Positions 58,746-63,687 of a stretch of DNA of 64,000 nt are shown piece after piece. The stretch covers positions 1-64,000 of the forward strand of contig NZ_JAUYFF010000008.1 in assembly GCF_030691015.1 (NCBI RefSeq), written 5' to 3'. This DNA comes from Sulfuricurvum sp. (GTDB taxonomy: Bacteria; Campylobacterota; Campylobacteria; Campylobacterales; Sulfurimonadaceae). Under the pieces are notes generated by a model. That model was not told the DNA's origin and did not search any database. It saw nothing but the letters and a program-made list of their open reading frames with translations. How positions within the stretch are numbered: the first letter of the stretch is position 1; each line of letters opens with the position of its first letter. The position numbers and the translations under genes were made by a program.

Positions 58746-60104
58746 TTAGTACTTCGGTCTCAACACGAAAAAGCAATATTTATGCTCACTTCCACTCGGT
58801 GTACTATGTGTATCTTCGATAACATTGATAAGATCAAAACGGTCTCGGACGAGATTTTTCATCCGATCTTCATCGTATTGTCGAACCGGTAATGCACTGC
58901 AACTATCAGGACCATCTATCGCAAACGTACCGATAATAGCGTGCCCTTCAGGAGAGAGTGAACGGGAGAGAGTCTCTATATAGGCAAGTTGTTCCTCCTC
59001 TTTTTGAAGAAAATGAAATACCGCACGGTCATGCCATACATCAAAGAGCTTATCCGATGAAAAAGCACATACATCACTGACACGGTAGAGGGGAAGATCC
59101 GCAGATGCCCCAAGTCGTTTTTTGACAATTTCCAGTGCACTTTGGGAGATATCGAGAAGCATAATATCCCTATATCCTAAATCGATCAAAGTATCCGCCA
59201 AAGTAGAGACTCCGCATCCGACATCGATAAAAGCGTCTTTGGAAGTTGAGCCTATTTTCTGCAATAATAAGAGTGAAATCGAAGGCTCTTTTTGATACCA
59301 GCCGACTTTGCTCATATCCTTGGTCGTATAAACATTTTCCCAGTGGCGCTCTTTAACGTTCCCATAGCCCTTGGTCGCTCTAAAGGTTGAGCCCGCAGTG
59401 GTCGGAGCTGTCGTATAGTGGTTGGTTCCCGTCCACTCGATATTCATAAATCCCGCTTCACCCATCAATTCTATTAAAGCCTCCTTGGTGAGCGTCCCCT
59501 CCACGCAGTTAGCCCAGTCGCCTTGCGAAGAGGAACAACATGACGTTACGCAGCTACCTTCTGAAATATCGATCATATCGGCGAAATAGAGTTTCCCCTC
59601 AGGCTTTAGGACACGATAAATCTCTTCGAATACTTTTGGCTTGGAGGATGCGAGATTGATCGCACCGTTAGAGATGACGATATCGACGCTTTCATTTTCA
59701 ATGGGGAGATTTTCGAGATTCCCTTCTACGACTTCGACATTGTTTAAACCTGCCTCTTTAGCGTGACGACTTGCGGTTTCGACCATCAACGGCGTAATAT
59801 CGACACCGATAGCCTTTCCACCCTCACCCACCAGCAATGCCGCGACACACAAATCGACACCCGCACCGCTCCCTAAATCAAGGATGCTCGCCCCCTCAGG
59901 GAATTCTCCAAGCTCGAACGGATTGCCGACCGCGGCACAATAATCCCACATAGCCGTGGGGAGTTTCTCGATCCACTCCTCTTTATAGCCGTGGTTTCGG
60001 GCATTTTTCACCCCTTTGTCCCATCCGAAATCTTTATCGGGGTTTTGAGCAAGATCGCTGTAAAGTGTGATGATCCCTTGTAGTGCGCATTGAGATGAAG
60101 CCAT
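58746..60104 (-). CDS. Two-domain SAM methyltransferase fusion, N half ArsM-like
   Basis: A 452-residue cytoplasmic protein made of two complete class I methyltransferase domains. Domain 1 (about 1-245) has SAM motif LDLGSGAGVD (75-84) and resembles arsenite methyltransferases, with Cys56, Cys86, Cys185, Cys189, Cys190 and Cys200; WANCVEGTLTKEALIELMGEAGF aligns with the third ArsM Cys region. Domain 2 (about 250-452) has FIDVGCGVSTLAD (292-304) and the HWENVYTTKDMSKVGWYQKEPS start of a distinct family of unknown substrate. It lies 49 nt downstream of the ArsB-type pump. Arsenic as substrate is inferred from context and Cys pattern. Confidence 0.85.
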   Translation of the reverse strand: MASSQCALQGIITLYSDLAQNPDKDFGWDKGVKNARNHGYKEEWIEKLPTAMWDYCAAVGNPFELGEFPEGASILDLGSGAGVDLCVAALLVGEGGKAIGVDITPLMVETASRHAKEAGLNNVEVVEGNLENLPIENESVDIVISNGAINLASSKPKVFEEIYRVLKPEGKLYFADMIDISEGSCVTSCCSSSQGDWANCVEGTLTKEALIELMGEAGFMNIEWTGTNHYTTAPTTAGSTFRATKGYGNVKERHWENVYTTKDMSKVGWYQKEPSISLLLLQKIGSTSKDAFIDVGCGVSTLADTLIDLGYRDIMLLDISQSALEIVKKRLGASADLPLYRVSDVCAFSSDKLFDVWHDRAVFHFLQKEEEQLAYIETLSRSLSPEGHAIIGTFAIDGPDSCSALPVRQYDEDRMKNLVRDRFDLINVIEDTHSTPSGSEHKYCFFVLRPKY

Positions 60105-60153: not shown

Positions 60154-61407
60154 TTATAATAGCCCTATTAACGCCACCAACAACACCGGTGGCGTAATCG
60201 CGAGCCCCACTTTCATATACTCGCCCCATCCGATCTTAACCCCTTTTTGCGCCAAAACATGGAGCCAAAGCAACGTGGCGAGTGATCCGATCGGGGTCAT
60301 TTTTGGCCCGAGGTTACATCCGATGATATTGGCATAAGCGAGCGCGCTGTTCCCCGCTTCGGCAATCGCGATGTCCATAATCATAACGGTCGGCATGTTG
60401 TTCATGACTGAGCTGAGGATGGCGGAGAGAAAGCCTGTACCGATGACGGCATAGACGTTCCCCATACTCTGAAGCTCCATAATCACCCCTGCGAGATAGG
60501 TCGTCAGGCCGCCGTTTTTAAGACCGTAGACGACGACGTAAAGACCGATACTAAACCACACCACCTGCCACGGTGCCGCTTTGATCGTGAGAAGCGGTTT
60601 CGTCGCTTTGAAATACGTCGCAATCGCTAAAAATACCAAAGCACCGCCGAGGGCAAATACCGAGATAGGGAGATGATACGCATCCCCGATGAAATAGCCG
60701 ACCATCAGTAATCCCAAAAACCACCAGCTGAGGCGGAACATCGTCATATTCTTGATCGCCGATTCAGGAGTGGCGAGGTGGTCGACATCGATATGACTCG
60801 GAATGTCTTTGCGGAAAAACAACCACAACACGACGATCGAGGCGATGATACTGAGGAGATTCGGGAGAAACATCGTCCGTGCGTATTCCCAAAAACCTAT
60901 TTGGAAGTATCCTGCCGTCACAATGTTGGTGAGGTTAGAGATGACGAGAGGATTGGACGCACTGTCACCGATAAATCCCCCCGCCATCAAAAAAGCAAAC
61001 ATCGCGACGGGATTGAGTTTCAGATATTTCATCTTGGCCAAAATGATCGGGGTGAGGATCAGCGCCGCCCCGTCGTTTGCGAAAAAAGCCGCTACCAGTG
61101 CACCGAGGATCATCATATAGATAAACATCAAATTCCCGTTTCCTTTGGACAACCGAACCATCTTCAATGCCGCCCATTCGAAAAATCCGATCTCATCAAG
61201 CACCATCGATAGAATGATAATGCCAATAAACGCAAGTGTTGCATCCCATACGATCGATGTTACTGTCCACACATCCTGAGGGCTTACCACACCGAGAATC
61301 ACCGCTACCACTGCACCGACTACTGCTGTCGTTCCGATCTGCAATCCGCGCGGTTGCCAAATAATAAAAAGAAGGGTAACTAAAAAGAGCGAAACCGCTA
61401 AAATCAT
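60154..61407 (-). CDS. arsB: Arsenite efflux pump, ArsB/NhaD-type permease
   Basis: Inner-membrane permease of 417 residues with about 11-12 helices, of the ArsB/CitM ion-transporter superfamily. Family features include FFANDGAALILTPIILA and the second-half SSVMNNMPTVMIMDIAIAE and NIIGCNLGPKMTPIGSLATLLW. The start at 61407 is preferred because GGAG lies 5-8 nt upstream; an in-frame ATG at 61443 would fall inside the promoter. It is divergent from arsR across a shared operator and is followed by the methyltransferase fusion gene. Confidence 0.93.
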   Translation of the reverse strand: MILAVSLFLVTLLFIIWQPRGLQIGTTAVVGAVVAVILGVVSPQDVWTVTSIVWDATLAFIGIIILSMVLDEIGFFEWAALKMVRLSKGNGNLMFIYMMILGALVAAFFANDGAALILTPIILAKMKYLKLNPVAMFAFLMAGGFIGDSASNPLVISNLTNIVTAGYFQIGFWEYARTMFLPNLLSIIASIVVLWLFFRKDIPSHIDVDHLATPESAIKNMTMFRLSWWFLGLLMVGYFIGDAYHLPISVFALGGALVFLAIATYFKATKPLLTIKAAPWQVVWFSIGLYVVVYGLKNGGLTTYLAGVIMELQSMGNVYAVIGTGFLSAILSSVMNNMPTVMIMDIAIAEAGNSALAYANIIGCNLGPKMTPIGSLATLLWLHVLAQKGVKIGWGEYMKVGLAITPPVLLVALIGLL

Positions 61408-61444
61408 AGTGTTCTCCAAAAACAGATAGAGAAATTGTATCATA

Positions 61445-61464
61445 ATATCAATATATCTTGATAT
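61445..61464. promoter_or_regulatory. ArsR operator in the divergent ars promoter
   Basis: ATATCAA - TATATC - TTGATAT is a perfect inverted repeat with 7-bp arms and a 6-bp spacer, the form bound by ArsR/SmtB repressors. The right arm supplies TTGATA as the -35 box of arsR. The left arm read on the other strand supplies the same TTGATA for the pump gene. One bound dimer could therefore block both directions. Confidence 0.75.
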
Positions 61465-61507: not shown

Positions 61508-61831
61508 ATGGATATTTTTTTAGAAACCGTATCGGCACTTAACGATGAAACCCGTATCAAACTCCTCGCTTTTTTGGATAAGCACGGTCCGCTGTGCGTC
61601 TGTGATCTCCAAGAGAGCTTTGGGATGATCCAATCACGTCTTTCGCGTCATTTGAAAATCCTCAAAGAGGGAGGGTTTTTACGGGTGGATCGGTGTGGTA
61701 CGTGGGCTTATTATTCTTTGCGTTCTCCGCTGGATCGTTTCCGTGGTGAAGCGCTGGCTGAAATCCGTTGTTTGGAAATTGAACTTCCCCCATTACAAAA
61801 ATTATCAGAAACTGGAGAGTGTAAATTATGA
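61508..61831 (+). CDS. arsR: Arsenic-responsive repressor ArsR
   Basis: A 107-residue winged-helix repressor. LCVCDLQESFGMIQSRLSRHLKILKEGGFL contains the As(III)-binding CVCDL motif at the start of the DNA-recognition region. Release from DNA on metalloid binding would open both divergent transcripts. GGAGGG lies about 6 nt before the ATG. It overlaps arsC by 4 nt (ATGA). Distinct from the second ArsR-family protein at 30247, which lacks the second Cys. Confidence 0.95.
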   Translation: MDIFLETVSALNDETRIKLLAFLDKHGPLCVCDLQESFGMIQSRLSRHLKILKEGGFLRVDRCGTWAYYSLRSPLDRFRGEALAEIRCLEIELPPLQKLSETGECKL

Positions 61832-62232
61832 AAAATGTTCTTATCCTCTGTACCGGCAACAGCTGCCGATCCATTATGGGTGAAGCCCTTATCAATGCGA
61901 AAATGGGAGATTGCGTATTTGCGCAAAGCTCAGGGGTGAAAGCCAGCGGTAAAGTAAACCCGAATGCACAAGCCCTTCTCGAAGAGAAAGGATACTGGAG
62001 AGAAGAGTACCACTCCAAAGTTATCGATACCGTTATCGATACTCCGTTCGATCTCGTTGTCACCGTTTGCGATCATGCGCATGAGACCTGCCCGATGTTT
62101 CCAAAGGCCGTTAAAACGATCCATGTAGCATTTGAAGATCCAAGCGGCAAAGAAGTGGAAGAGTATGCTAAAACATTAGCACTTATCGAAGAGACCCTCT
62201 TGCCGATCATCCAATCCGAGTTGTGTGACTGA
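61828..62232 (+). CDS. arsC: Arsenate reductase, low-molecular-weight phosphatase type
   Basis: Reduces arsenate to arsenite using thioredoxin. The 134-residue protein has the P-loop LCTGNSCRSIM (CX5R) at the N terminus and the redox Cys pair in VTVCDHAHETCPMFP, as in the Staphylococcus/Bacillus thioredoxin-coupled ArsC rather than the glutaredoxin type. The small CxxC thioredoxin-like protein three genes downstream is a possible partner. Translationally coupled to arsR. Confidence 0.95.
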   Translation: MKNVLILCTGNSCRSIMGEALINAKMGDCVFAQSSGVKASGKVNPNAQALLEEKGYWREEYHSKVIDTVIDTPFDLVVTVCDHAHETCPMFPKAVKTIHVAFEDPSGKEVEEYAKTLALIEETLLPIIQSELCD

Positions 62233-62234
62233 TT

Positions 62235-63185
62235 ATGTGGCAGGAGAGCGTCAACGTCCTCGTCTATGAATGGCTGAAAATGCCGCAAGGGGAGAAACTC
62301 TCCGATGCTCTCAACTTTTTTATCTACGATACGGTAAAAATCCTCTTTCTCCTCACCACGATTATTTACGCGGTAACCCTTCTACGCTCGTACTTCTCTA
62401 CTGAAAAAGTACGGGAGTATCTCAGTAAAAAACATGAATATACGGGGAATGTCCTCGCCGCGCTGTTTGGGATTATCACCCCGTTTTGCTCGTGTTCGGC
62501 GATTCCCCTCTTTTTAGGTTTTTTACAAGCACGGATACCGCTTGGAGTGACATTTAGCTATCTGATATCCGCACCGTTGAACAACGAAATCGCCATTGCG
62601 ATGCTGCTCACTATGTTCGGATGGAAAGTGGCGGCGTTGTATATCGGATTCGGTCTTCTCGTCGCTATTATCGGCGGGATCGTTATCGGCAGAATGGGGT
62701 TGGAGAAAGAGATTCTCATAGAAGTTAAGCCGATTGAGGGGGAGATTCACGCCGAAAATCAGGTGATAGCGTTTAAAACACGTTTGAGTGATGCTTGGGA
62801 TTACACCTTCGATATCCTCCGTAAAATTTGGCTCTATATATTGATCGGTGTCGGTGCGGGTGCCTTTATCCACGGCTATGTCCCGACCGAGTTTATCACC
62901 TCTATCGCAGGGGCGGATAATCCATTTGCCGTTCCTCTCGCGACACTCTTAGGGGTTCCGATGTATTCCAACGCCGCAGGGGTTATGCCGCTTATCGAAG
63001 TGCTCACTTCCAAAGGGATGCTAATGGGGACGGCATTGTCGTTTATGATGGCCATCACCGCCCTCTCCCTCCCCGAAGCGATGATACTTAAGCGGATTAT
63101 GAGCCTCAAACTCATCGCCATCTTTTTCGGTACCGTAACGCTGGGGATTATGGGCGTCGGATATCTGTTTAATGCCATTTTATAG
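62235..63185 (+). CDS. ArsP/DUF318-family permease
   Basis: A 316-residue membrane protein with about eight helices. It has the family motif TPFCSCSAIPLFLGFLQARIP with SAPLNNEIAIAML, and GVPMYSNAAGVMPLIE in the second half. In Campylobacter, ArsP of this family exports trivalent organoarsenicals such as methylarsenite. With a methyltransferase encoded across the promoter this is the likely substrate here. Many DUF318 permeases are uncharacterised, so other soft metals remain possible. It starts 2 nt after arsC. Confidence 0.88.
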   Translation: MWQESVNVLVYEWLKMPQGEKLSDALNFFIYDTVKILFLLTTIIYAVTLLRSYFSTEKVREYLSKKHEYTGNVLAALFGIITPFCSCSAIPLFLGFLQARIPLGVTFSYLISAPLNNEIAIAMLLTMFGWKVAALYIGFGLLVAIIGGIVIGRMGLEKEILIEVKPIEGEIHAENQVIAFKTRLSDAWDYTFDILRKIWLYILIGVGAGAFIHGYVPTEFITSIAGADNPFAVPLATLLGVPMYSNAAGVMPLIEVLTSKGMLMGTALSFMMAITALSLPEAMILKRIMSLKLIAIFFGTVTLGIMGVGYLFNAIL

Positions 63186-63193
63186 GAGATAAT

Positions 63194-63454
63194 ATGAAAA
63201 TCGAAATGATGAACCACACAGGTGGAGTCAAAGCCTTTCTCGGTGGATTTAGTACCGAAGAGCTAAGTGCGAAAATCGAAGCGTGCCAGAGCGGTCAATG
63301 TGAGTGTGCATGTGATCCCGCGATCATGCAAAAAATCGAGGGAATTGAACTCTCAACAGTCGAAGGCGGCTCTACCATTACGATTACGGGTGATGTCAAT
63401 GCTGAAACCTTGGCACCAATGATGCAAGAGTGTCTTATAGGAGGAAAAGAATGA
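63194..63454 (+). CDS. Small Cys-rich protein of the ars operon
   Basis: An 86-residue protein with no recognised family. It has a cluster CQSGQCECACDP (Cys31, Cys36, Cys38, Cys40) and a fifth Cys at position 80 near the C terminus. The rest is predicted alpha/beta. AGGAG precedes the ATG, and it overlaps the thioredoxin-like gene by 4 nt. The closely spaced thiols and the operon suggest binding of As(III) or another soft metal, perhaps as a chaperone to the permease, but this is inference. Confidence 0.8.
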   Translation: MKIEMMNHTGGVKAFLGGFSTEELSAKIEACQSGQCECACDPAIMQKIEGIELSTVEGGSTITITGDVNAETLAPMMQECLIGGKE

Positions 63455-63687
63455 AAATCGAAATTTTAGGGACGGGATGTGCGAAATGCAAAGCCCTCGA
63501 AGAGGCGACAAAACAAGCGGTGGCACTTAGCGGTAAATTCGCTCAAATCGAAAAAGTCGAAGACATTATGAAGATCATGGAATACAATGTCATAAGCACC
63601 CCAGGACTCGTTATCGACGGTAAAGTCGTGAGTACCGGAAAACTCATCAGTGTCGCCGAAATCGTCGATTTAATCAAAGCACACTAA
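63451..63687 (+). CDS. Thioredoxin-like redox protein (redox-active disulfide protein type)
   Basis: A 78-residue thioredoxin-fold protein. The active site is GTGCAKCKALEE with Cys10 and Cys13 directly after the first strand, and the cis-Pro region is VISTPGLVIDGKVVSTG. Such mini-thioredoxins often accompany DUF318 permeases. It could reduce ArsC or the permease. The ATG at 63451 is preferred because GGAGGAAAAG lies just upstream. It ends 7 nt from the stop of the convergent RCK gene. Confidence 0.9.
   Translation: MKIEILGTGCAKCKALEEATKQAVALSGKFAQIEKVEDIMKIMEYNVISTPGLVIDGKVVSTGKLISVAEIVDLIKAH

Follow-up and report, generated by a model that had tools for sequence, protein, structure and literature searches.

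A tandem methyltransferase of Campylobacterota, tentatively assigned to soft, thiol-type substrates, in an arsenic operon of Sulfuricurvum

Introduction

The described systems closest to the enzyme reported here include the ArsM/AS3MT family (NF008823), represented by CmArsM and CrArsM, and the residues Cys72, Cys174, and Cys224 of CmArsM are taken here to be its arsenic-binding cysteines. Other related families carry the names 'ArsM/AhpD' (NF041537), 'ArsM/DUF2284' (NF041536), and 'methyltransferase/UXPK-star' (NF047649). In the available portion of PMC13188914, a UxxG motif is given for selenoprotein ArsM, and the accessible part of PMC8649762 describes an ArsM of Thermus that methylates arsenite without the canonical site. 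Two methyltransferase domains per chain are present in the tandem phosphoethanolamine methyltransferases (AtPMT1/2 and Haemonchus PMT), while MddM1, a 210-aa H2S/MeSH methyltransferase, carries out both methyl transfers with one domain, as far as the accessible text of PMC12904073 goes.

A 64,000-nt stretch of a Sulfuricurvum genome (contig NZ_JAUYFF010000008.1, hereafter the window) contains a gene for a fusion of two methyltransferases that can be compared with each of these systems. With ArsM/AS3MT it shares the fold of its first domain (Z 24-26, 31-32% identity), the SAM motifs, and C200, the equivalent of Cys224, whereas Val and Gly stand in place of Cys72 and Cys174, the score lies under the family cut-off, a second methyltransferase is attached, and an ars operon is usually absent. 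Its first domain has CxxG at the site of the UxxG motif, as that motif is given in the available portion of PMC13188914, and in this respect resembles NF041537, NF041536, and NF047649; unlike these, it has Cys for Sec, a methyltransferase as partner, and scores far under their cut-offs of 460-575 bits, and Pfam found no match to an AhpD domain in the fusion protein. The resemblance to the tandem phosphoethanolamine methyltransferases is one of layout only, since Foldseek alignments of about 470-520 columns gave 11-15% identity and an rmsd of 16-20, and MddM1 is similar in size to the second domain. The two domains are of known kinds. No account of this fusion, or of an operon combining MerT-rhodanese and methyltransferase genes, was recognised in the literature found, and as far as that literature shows, the joining of these domains is new, as are the cysteine pattern of the fusion and its association with MerT-rhodanese and ArsR2.

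Architecture and Distribution of the Fusion

The fusion gene (58,746-60,104, minus strand) is a single intact open reading frame of 452 aa with an ATG start and no internal stops, and full-length counterparts occur in Sulfuricurvum, Sulfurimonas, and Sulfurovum. Pfam delineates two methyltransferase stretches, and the SAM motifs LDLGSGAG and IDVGCGVS begin at residues 75 and 293, respectively. An AlphaFold2 model built from 18 sequences (mean pLDDT 85, pTM 0.65) predicts two separately folded domains and assigns low confidence to the cysteine-rich loop 184-200. The first-pass annotation had described two complete SAM-binding domains in one polypeptide, and the reading frame, motif positions, Pfam matches, and predicted folds all agree with that description; its description of an ArsM-like domain joined to a second, unrelated type of methyltransferase within an ars island likewise holds, the gene lying behind arsB.

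Full-length fusions were detected in 8 of 60 relatives, the window's own genome included, and, across the order, in 14 of 398 genomes. All 21 matched named contigs are Campylobacterota by name (one as 'Epsilonproteobacteria'); 17 of them carry the full-length fusion and the remaining four have truncated copies. Among named records, a Sulfuricurvum MAG comes closest, with 90% identity across the protein, and identity to the window's protein declines from this value to 50%. A scan with two short domain-1 peptides (YFADMID and DWANCVE), which diverged fusions could escape, yielded no fusion outside Campylobacterota, and when the two domains were searched separately against a plasmid collection, no joined pair was found among the matches listed, which covered 40 of the 56 and 60 of the 82 matching records. 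In 13 comparisons covering both domains, dN/dS ranged from 0.07 to 0.11 for domain 1 and from 0.07 to 0.14 for domain 2. The fusion is neither a chance event nor an assembly artefact, and both of its domains are under purifying selection.

Domain 1 Belongs with the ArsM Superfamily and Has Its Own Cysteine Set

Domain 1 (residues 1-250; 59,355-60,104, minus strand) can be described as an ArsM-superfamily methyltransferase of the 'SNG' type on the basis of profile scores, alignment, and fold match. Against NF008823 it scored 177.6 bits, under the cut-off of 263, in the company of the solitary domain 1 of genome G377 (188 bits) and three SNG-type relatives (195-242 bits), while all five SNC-type ArsM sequences used as controls scored 306-353 bits. 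Its scores against NF041537 (195 bits, cut-off 510) and NF041536 (183 bits) were at least as high as that against NF008823. In the fold comparison, CrArsM (Z 25.8, 209 residues aligned, rmsd 2.6) and CmArsM (Z 24.7) were matched, with the non-ArsM protein YcgJ tied at Z 24.8. Both the sequence and the predicted fold indicate the ArsM superfamily.

In an alignment of 57 homologues (two contig-end rows, L077 and L079, omitted), Val59, Gly147, and Cys200 of domain 1 occupy the positions of Cys72, Cys174, and Cys224 of CmArsM; for residues 174 and 224, this numbering agrees with the chain numbering of CmArsM. This Val/Gly/Cys pattern is shared by the 33 domain-1 sequences without exception, whether fused or split, and by five other methyltransferases. 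All three cysteine positions are kept in 19 of 19 SNC-type ArsM sequences, which came from ars operons, radical-SAM fusions, an arsenosugar cluster, and two Campylobacterota loci, with the third position being Sec in one of them. C56, C185, and C190 are invariant in all 18 fusions and C189 nearly so. The cysteines of this domain had been read as consistent with arsenic methylation; that reading does not survive the comparison, in which C200 is the only arsenic-site equivalent kept and the family score remains well below the cut-off. Domain 1 was rejected as an ordinary ArsM for its score under the cut-off and its missing cysteines, and the label 'ArsM-like' stands.

The 'SNG' methyltransferases of haloarchaea (near AhpD-/OsmC-type genes) and Chelatococcus resemble domain 1 in having the same three-residue pattern (5/5) and differ from it in being standalone, in having Phe at the position of Cys56, and in their neighbours. 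One haloarchaeal SNG-type gene overlaps a UbiE-like methyltransferase gene by 4 nt (L151, 5,962-7,595), and this second methyltransferase was ruled out as the other half of the fusion. Among SNC-type sequences, a radical-SAM domain is fused to a canonical ArsM in genome G055 (L048, 5,439-7,619), and G192, G157, and other genomes of the same family contain frames of roughly 720-1,030 aa that include an ArsM stretch. The arsM gene of a Paraclostridium plasmid (L153, 4,899-5,657) contains an in-frame TGA at the Cys224 position, read as Sec, which is in line with the UxxG motif as reported in the available portion of PMC13188914.

A true arsenic methyltransferase would require domain 1 to methylate arsenite through rewired cysteines (C56, C185/189/190, and C200), domain 2 to add a further methyl group, and ArsP to export the product. 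The ArsM-type fold of domain 1 is compatible with such a role, as is C200 at a position where the Paraclostridium enzyme has UGA-encoded Sec, and since the Thermus ArsM is active without the canonical site (in the accessible part of PMC8649762), absent cysteines do not exclude arsenic. The lack of the Cys72 and Cys174 equivalents in every domain-1 sequence and the score under the ArsM cut-off argue in the opposite direction, and together with the genomic evidence below they make this explanation somewhat unlikely.

Phylogenetic trees were compatible with more than one placement. A rooted tree (five near-identical radical-SAM/ArsM rows, L082, L127, L129, L128, and L017, omitted) recovered an ArsM clade (94/88) and domain 1 as a separate clade (97/95). 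When two diagnostic columns and the outgroup were removed, domain 1 still formed a clade (100/100) on a long branch, the ArsM clade appeared in only 18% of bootstraps, and both topologies tested for domain 1 versus ArsM were compatible with the data (AU p 0.44 and 0.38). The proof that domain 1 lies outside ArsM, suggested by the rooted tree, was therefore set aside, having dissolved without these columns and the outgroup.

Domain 2 Represents a Broad Family of Standalone Enzymes

Domain 2 (residues 251-452; 58,746-59,354, minus strand) is assigned to class I methyltransferases with the family motifs HW..W.Q, WHDR..FHF, and C-[SA]-x-L, and its fold matches that of Rv0560c (Z 22.1). Among 52 aligned sequences, C402, H364, W357, D359, and R360 are invariant, and H358 and H433 are conserved in 98% and 96%, respectively. 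The family is broad and consists of standalone enzymes of about 200 aa, which share with domain 2 its full length, the WHDR and FHF motifs, and the invariant Cys, and differ from it in being unfused; 56 plasmid records match, all below 60% identity, and the plasmid members shown are 36-44% identical. With the two models for NodS methyltransferases, domain 2 alone reached 26.2 bits against PF05401 (cut-off 24), but 37.9 bits against NF041650 (cut-off 300). The matches to NodS, UbiG, and BioC were weak and under the NCBIfam cut-offs, and none of the three assignments was adopted. A methyltransferase beside the domain-2 gene of Runella was also considered as the other half of the fusion and ruled out.

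Of eight plasmid neighbourhoods of domain-2 relatives, the seven that bear annotation were surveyed, and six have metal or sulfur genes within 8 kb: DmeF; MBL-fold, TauE, and DsbD; ArsR with a metal ATPase; chrA; MBL-fold, TauE, thiosulfate transport, and DsrE; and ArsR with metal ATPases. The seventh, from Aminobacter, shows no clear metal or sulfur gene. Five domain-2-only loci of Sulfurimonadaceae (L144-L148) lie outside a sulfur or metal context.

The ars Island of the Window

In the window, the fusion lies 49 nt downstream of arsB (60,154-61,443, minus strand; NF011980, 612 bits, over the cut-off) on the same strand, and a promoter and terminator scan reported no terminator-like site between them; we infer that the two genes are co-transcribed. 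In the divergent promoter region of arsR and arsB, an inverted repeat read from the sequence, ATATCAA-6-TTGATAT (61,445-61,464), is probably an ArsR operator. On the plus strand follow arsR, a CVC-type ArsR/SmtB repressor by Pfam and NCBIfam (61,508-61,831), arsC of the low-molecular-weight-phosphatase type (61,828-62,232; PF01451 over the cut-off, with the thioredoxin-type arsenate reductase models under theirs), an ArsP-type (DUF318) permease (62,235-63,185; PF03773), an 86-aa orphan protein (63,194-63,454), and an ArsE/MTH895-family thioredoxin-like protein (63,430-63,687; TIGR00412 over the cut-off).

The orphan protein contains the cysteine-rich stretch CQSGQCECAC, is conserved in L031 and L032, and gave no Pfam or NCBIfam match. 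In genome G028, ArsC shares its reading frame with a related domain placed behind it (L042, 13,110-14,147), hinting that the orphan works with ArsC. This ArsC fusion looks real, and an ArsR-ArsC fusion frame considered for the same locus was discarded, its first part not being an ArsR frame.

The permease had been placed across the shared promoter and regarded as a link to methylarsenic. It does lie on the divergent arm, as the third gene there, and the closest co-directional neighbour of the fusion is arsB. The proposed link fares less well: ArsP is present in 31 of 41 genomes of the genus, and in 8 of 9 genomes with the fusion versus 21 of 28 without it (Fisher p 0.65; four further genomes of the genus fall outside these two groups). 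Since ArsP is frequent in the genus whether or not the fusion is present, it was rejected as a functional partner and gives an arsenic role no support. The position of the fusion behind arsB, under an ArsR-type divergent promoter, does count for such a role, as does the fact that purifying selection has kept it intact there.

Gene Context across Fused Loci

The setting seen in the window is exceptional. Within 6 kb of 31 fused loci (27 whole and four cut; L059-L065, L067, L068, L072, L074, and L078, being duplicates of genomes in the set, were counted once), homologues of the ars set (ArsB, ArsR, ArsC, and ArsP) were found near three, in genomes G000, G002, and G036. The remaining 28 lie outside ars islands, which weighs against an arsenic methyltransferase and contradicts the view of an ars neighbourhood as the typical setting. 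In G036, a LapG-like gene on the opposite strand separates arsB from the fusion.

In most relatives, the fusion is instead accompanied by genes for MerT-rhodanese, rhodanese, DsrE, or DsbD and adjoins the gene of an ArsR-type repressor with three cysteines, here called ArsR2. ArsR2 was found near 22 of the 31 loci, rhodanese near 23, and MerT near 13, with at least one of the three near 24; four loci have neither these genes nor the ars set, one beginning at a contig end and a second having only 0.7 kb on one side. No ars, ArsR2, rhodanese, or MerT genes occurred in 27 control loci totalling 88 kb. The ArsR2-type locus of G258 also contains an ArsP-type permease. The ArsR2-type repressors carry a loop insertion, share three invariant cysteines across all 32 sequences, and occur in two paralogous forms (e.g., L033, 9,390-9,767 and 11,166-11,621). 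Tso is taken here to denote a three-selenoprotein operon, a name that reportedly derives from Haft and Tolstoy in 2025. Against the TsoR and TsoB models of this system, ArsR2 scored 25-39 bits versus a cut-off of 115, and the neighbouring DsbD 162-229 bits versus 805.

A MerT-like/rhodanese fusion protein is encoded directly upstream of the tandem methyltransferase at several loci (L068, 3,466-4,476; L067, 4,971-5,987; others). Among 13 loci, 12 have the pair, the MerT frame of L069 being under the length limit; in 11 of the 12, the MerT-rhodanese frame ends at -8 to +3 nt from the fusion start on the same strand. The exception, L139, has a split MerT frame, and there 8 nt separate the end of the rhodanese frame from the fusion. 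The loop of the rhodanese domain is CRSGGRG in L068 and DRTGGRG in L067, and the MerT-fused rhodanese may be inactive in some loci. A more elaborate scheme, which we regard as doubtful, would have the MerT-rhodanese protein import a thiophilic metal(loid) or pass it on to the tandem enzyme, whose rebuilt domain-1 Cys site and domain-2 Cys/His site would methylate it sequentially, one lineage having joined the arsenic operon.

The same neighbourhoods bear on a sulfide/methanethiol or selenide S/Se-methyltransferase, which would convert toxic chalcogen species to volatile dimethyl products, each domain carrying out one of the two steps. The repeated linkage with rhodanese, DsrE, and DsbD speaks for it, as do plasmid domain-2 relatives near MBL-fold, TauE, DsbD, thioredoxin, and thiosulfate-transport genes, and small soluble enzymes with such activity exist, as the accessible text of PMC12904073 illustrates with MddM1. 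That enzyme, however, manages both transfers with a single domain, other plasmid relatives lie near metal pumps, and the MerT linkage points to metals, so that this alternative appears unlikely.

Apparent Relocation of the Fusion, and Loss and Splitting of Its Domains

On the domain-2 tree, G000, G002, and G036 form one clade (97/89) with G028, which has domain 2 only. This single clade of the window's lineage fits one relocation, and the fusion appears to have moved into the ars island once. ArsR2 and DsrE are still present on another contig in G002 and G028; in G000, the best ArsR2 match has 36% identity (contig C12, 30,268-30,576) and DsrE was not found, and neither gene was found in G036. 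That G000, G002, and G036 retain an intact fusion in their ars islands after the move, with purifying selection acting on it, favours an arsenic role there. In G028, whose matches to domain 1 are very short, the ars island keeps domain 2 only, which argues against the arsenic role.

The presence of domain 1 changes five times on the domain-2 tree (plasmid rows, L143, and the distant L149 omitted), a count in which losses and separate fusions are not told apart by the tree. A 40-residue domain-1 remnant in G025 (E 4e-9) indicates loss in that genome. Separate, adjacent genes for the two domains occur at five loci (G006, G029, G010, G023, and the second copy in G034), and in G377 the domains are 139 kb apart. 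Such arrangements, and the retention of domain 2 without domain 1 in several lineages, could mean that the domains act on unrelated small molecules and were fused when operon genes ran together, the ars location being accidental. Three genera have nevertheless retained the fusion, at 50-54% identity to the window's protein, and the split genes are still neighbours in five of six genomes; this reading is very improbable.

Proposed Function

A tandem methyltransferase that acts on soft, thiol-type substrates and joined an arsenic operon on one occasion is put forward as a tentative reading, quite possible without being firmly probable. The protein is a tandem SAM-dependent methyltransferase, found here only in Campylobacterota, and domain 2 would be its core. 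Domain 2 probably methylates a small soft nucleophile (a thiol, hydrosulfide, or thiol-bound metalloid) by means of Cys402 and the conserved histidines, and domain 1, whose own cysteine set extends into a flexible loop, probably transfers or readies a methyl group on the same or a related substrate; we infer both the substrate and the order of methylation. Given the MerT-rhodanese, rhodanese, DsrE, and DsbD neighbours and the three-cysteine repressor, the usual job is probably in sulfur or soft-metal stress. In the window's clade, a single move would have brought the gene directly behind arsB; there it is likely transcribed from the promoter under ArsR control, and the enzyme would act in the presence of arsenic.

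The residue pattern, the ArsM scores, domain-2 conservation, gene context, MerT-rhodanese spacing, the ArsR2 cysteines, the five domain-1 changes, the ArsR2 and DsrE genes left behind in G002 and G028, and dN/dS were counted in favour of the soft-substrate reading. Counted against it were the retention of the intact fusion by the ars-island clade, the four of 31 fused loci with neither context, the domain-2-only loci L144-L148, and the Thermus ArsM as described in the accessible part of PMC8649762. A soft-nucleophile role for domain 2, in which domain 1 assists or performs a second step, is a better guess than the somewhat unlikely arsenic role.

Implications

Genes of the domain-1 type are likely counted as arsM in environmental surveys, even though two of the three arsenic-binding cysteines are absent from their products. 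Should the fusion act in sulfur or soft-metal stress, surveys of sulfidic, Campylobacterota-rich habitats would overcount arsM; if it methylates arsenic, it would show a different arsenic site. The repeated linkage with MerT-rhodanese and ArsR2 provides a testable set of partners for a widespread family of domain-2 methyltransferases.
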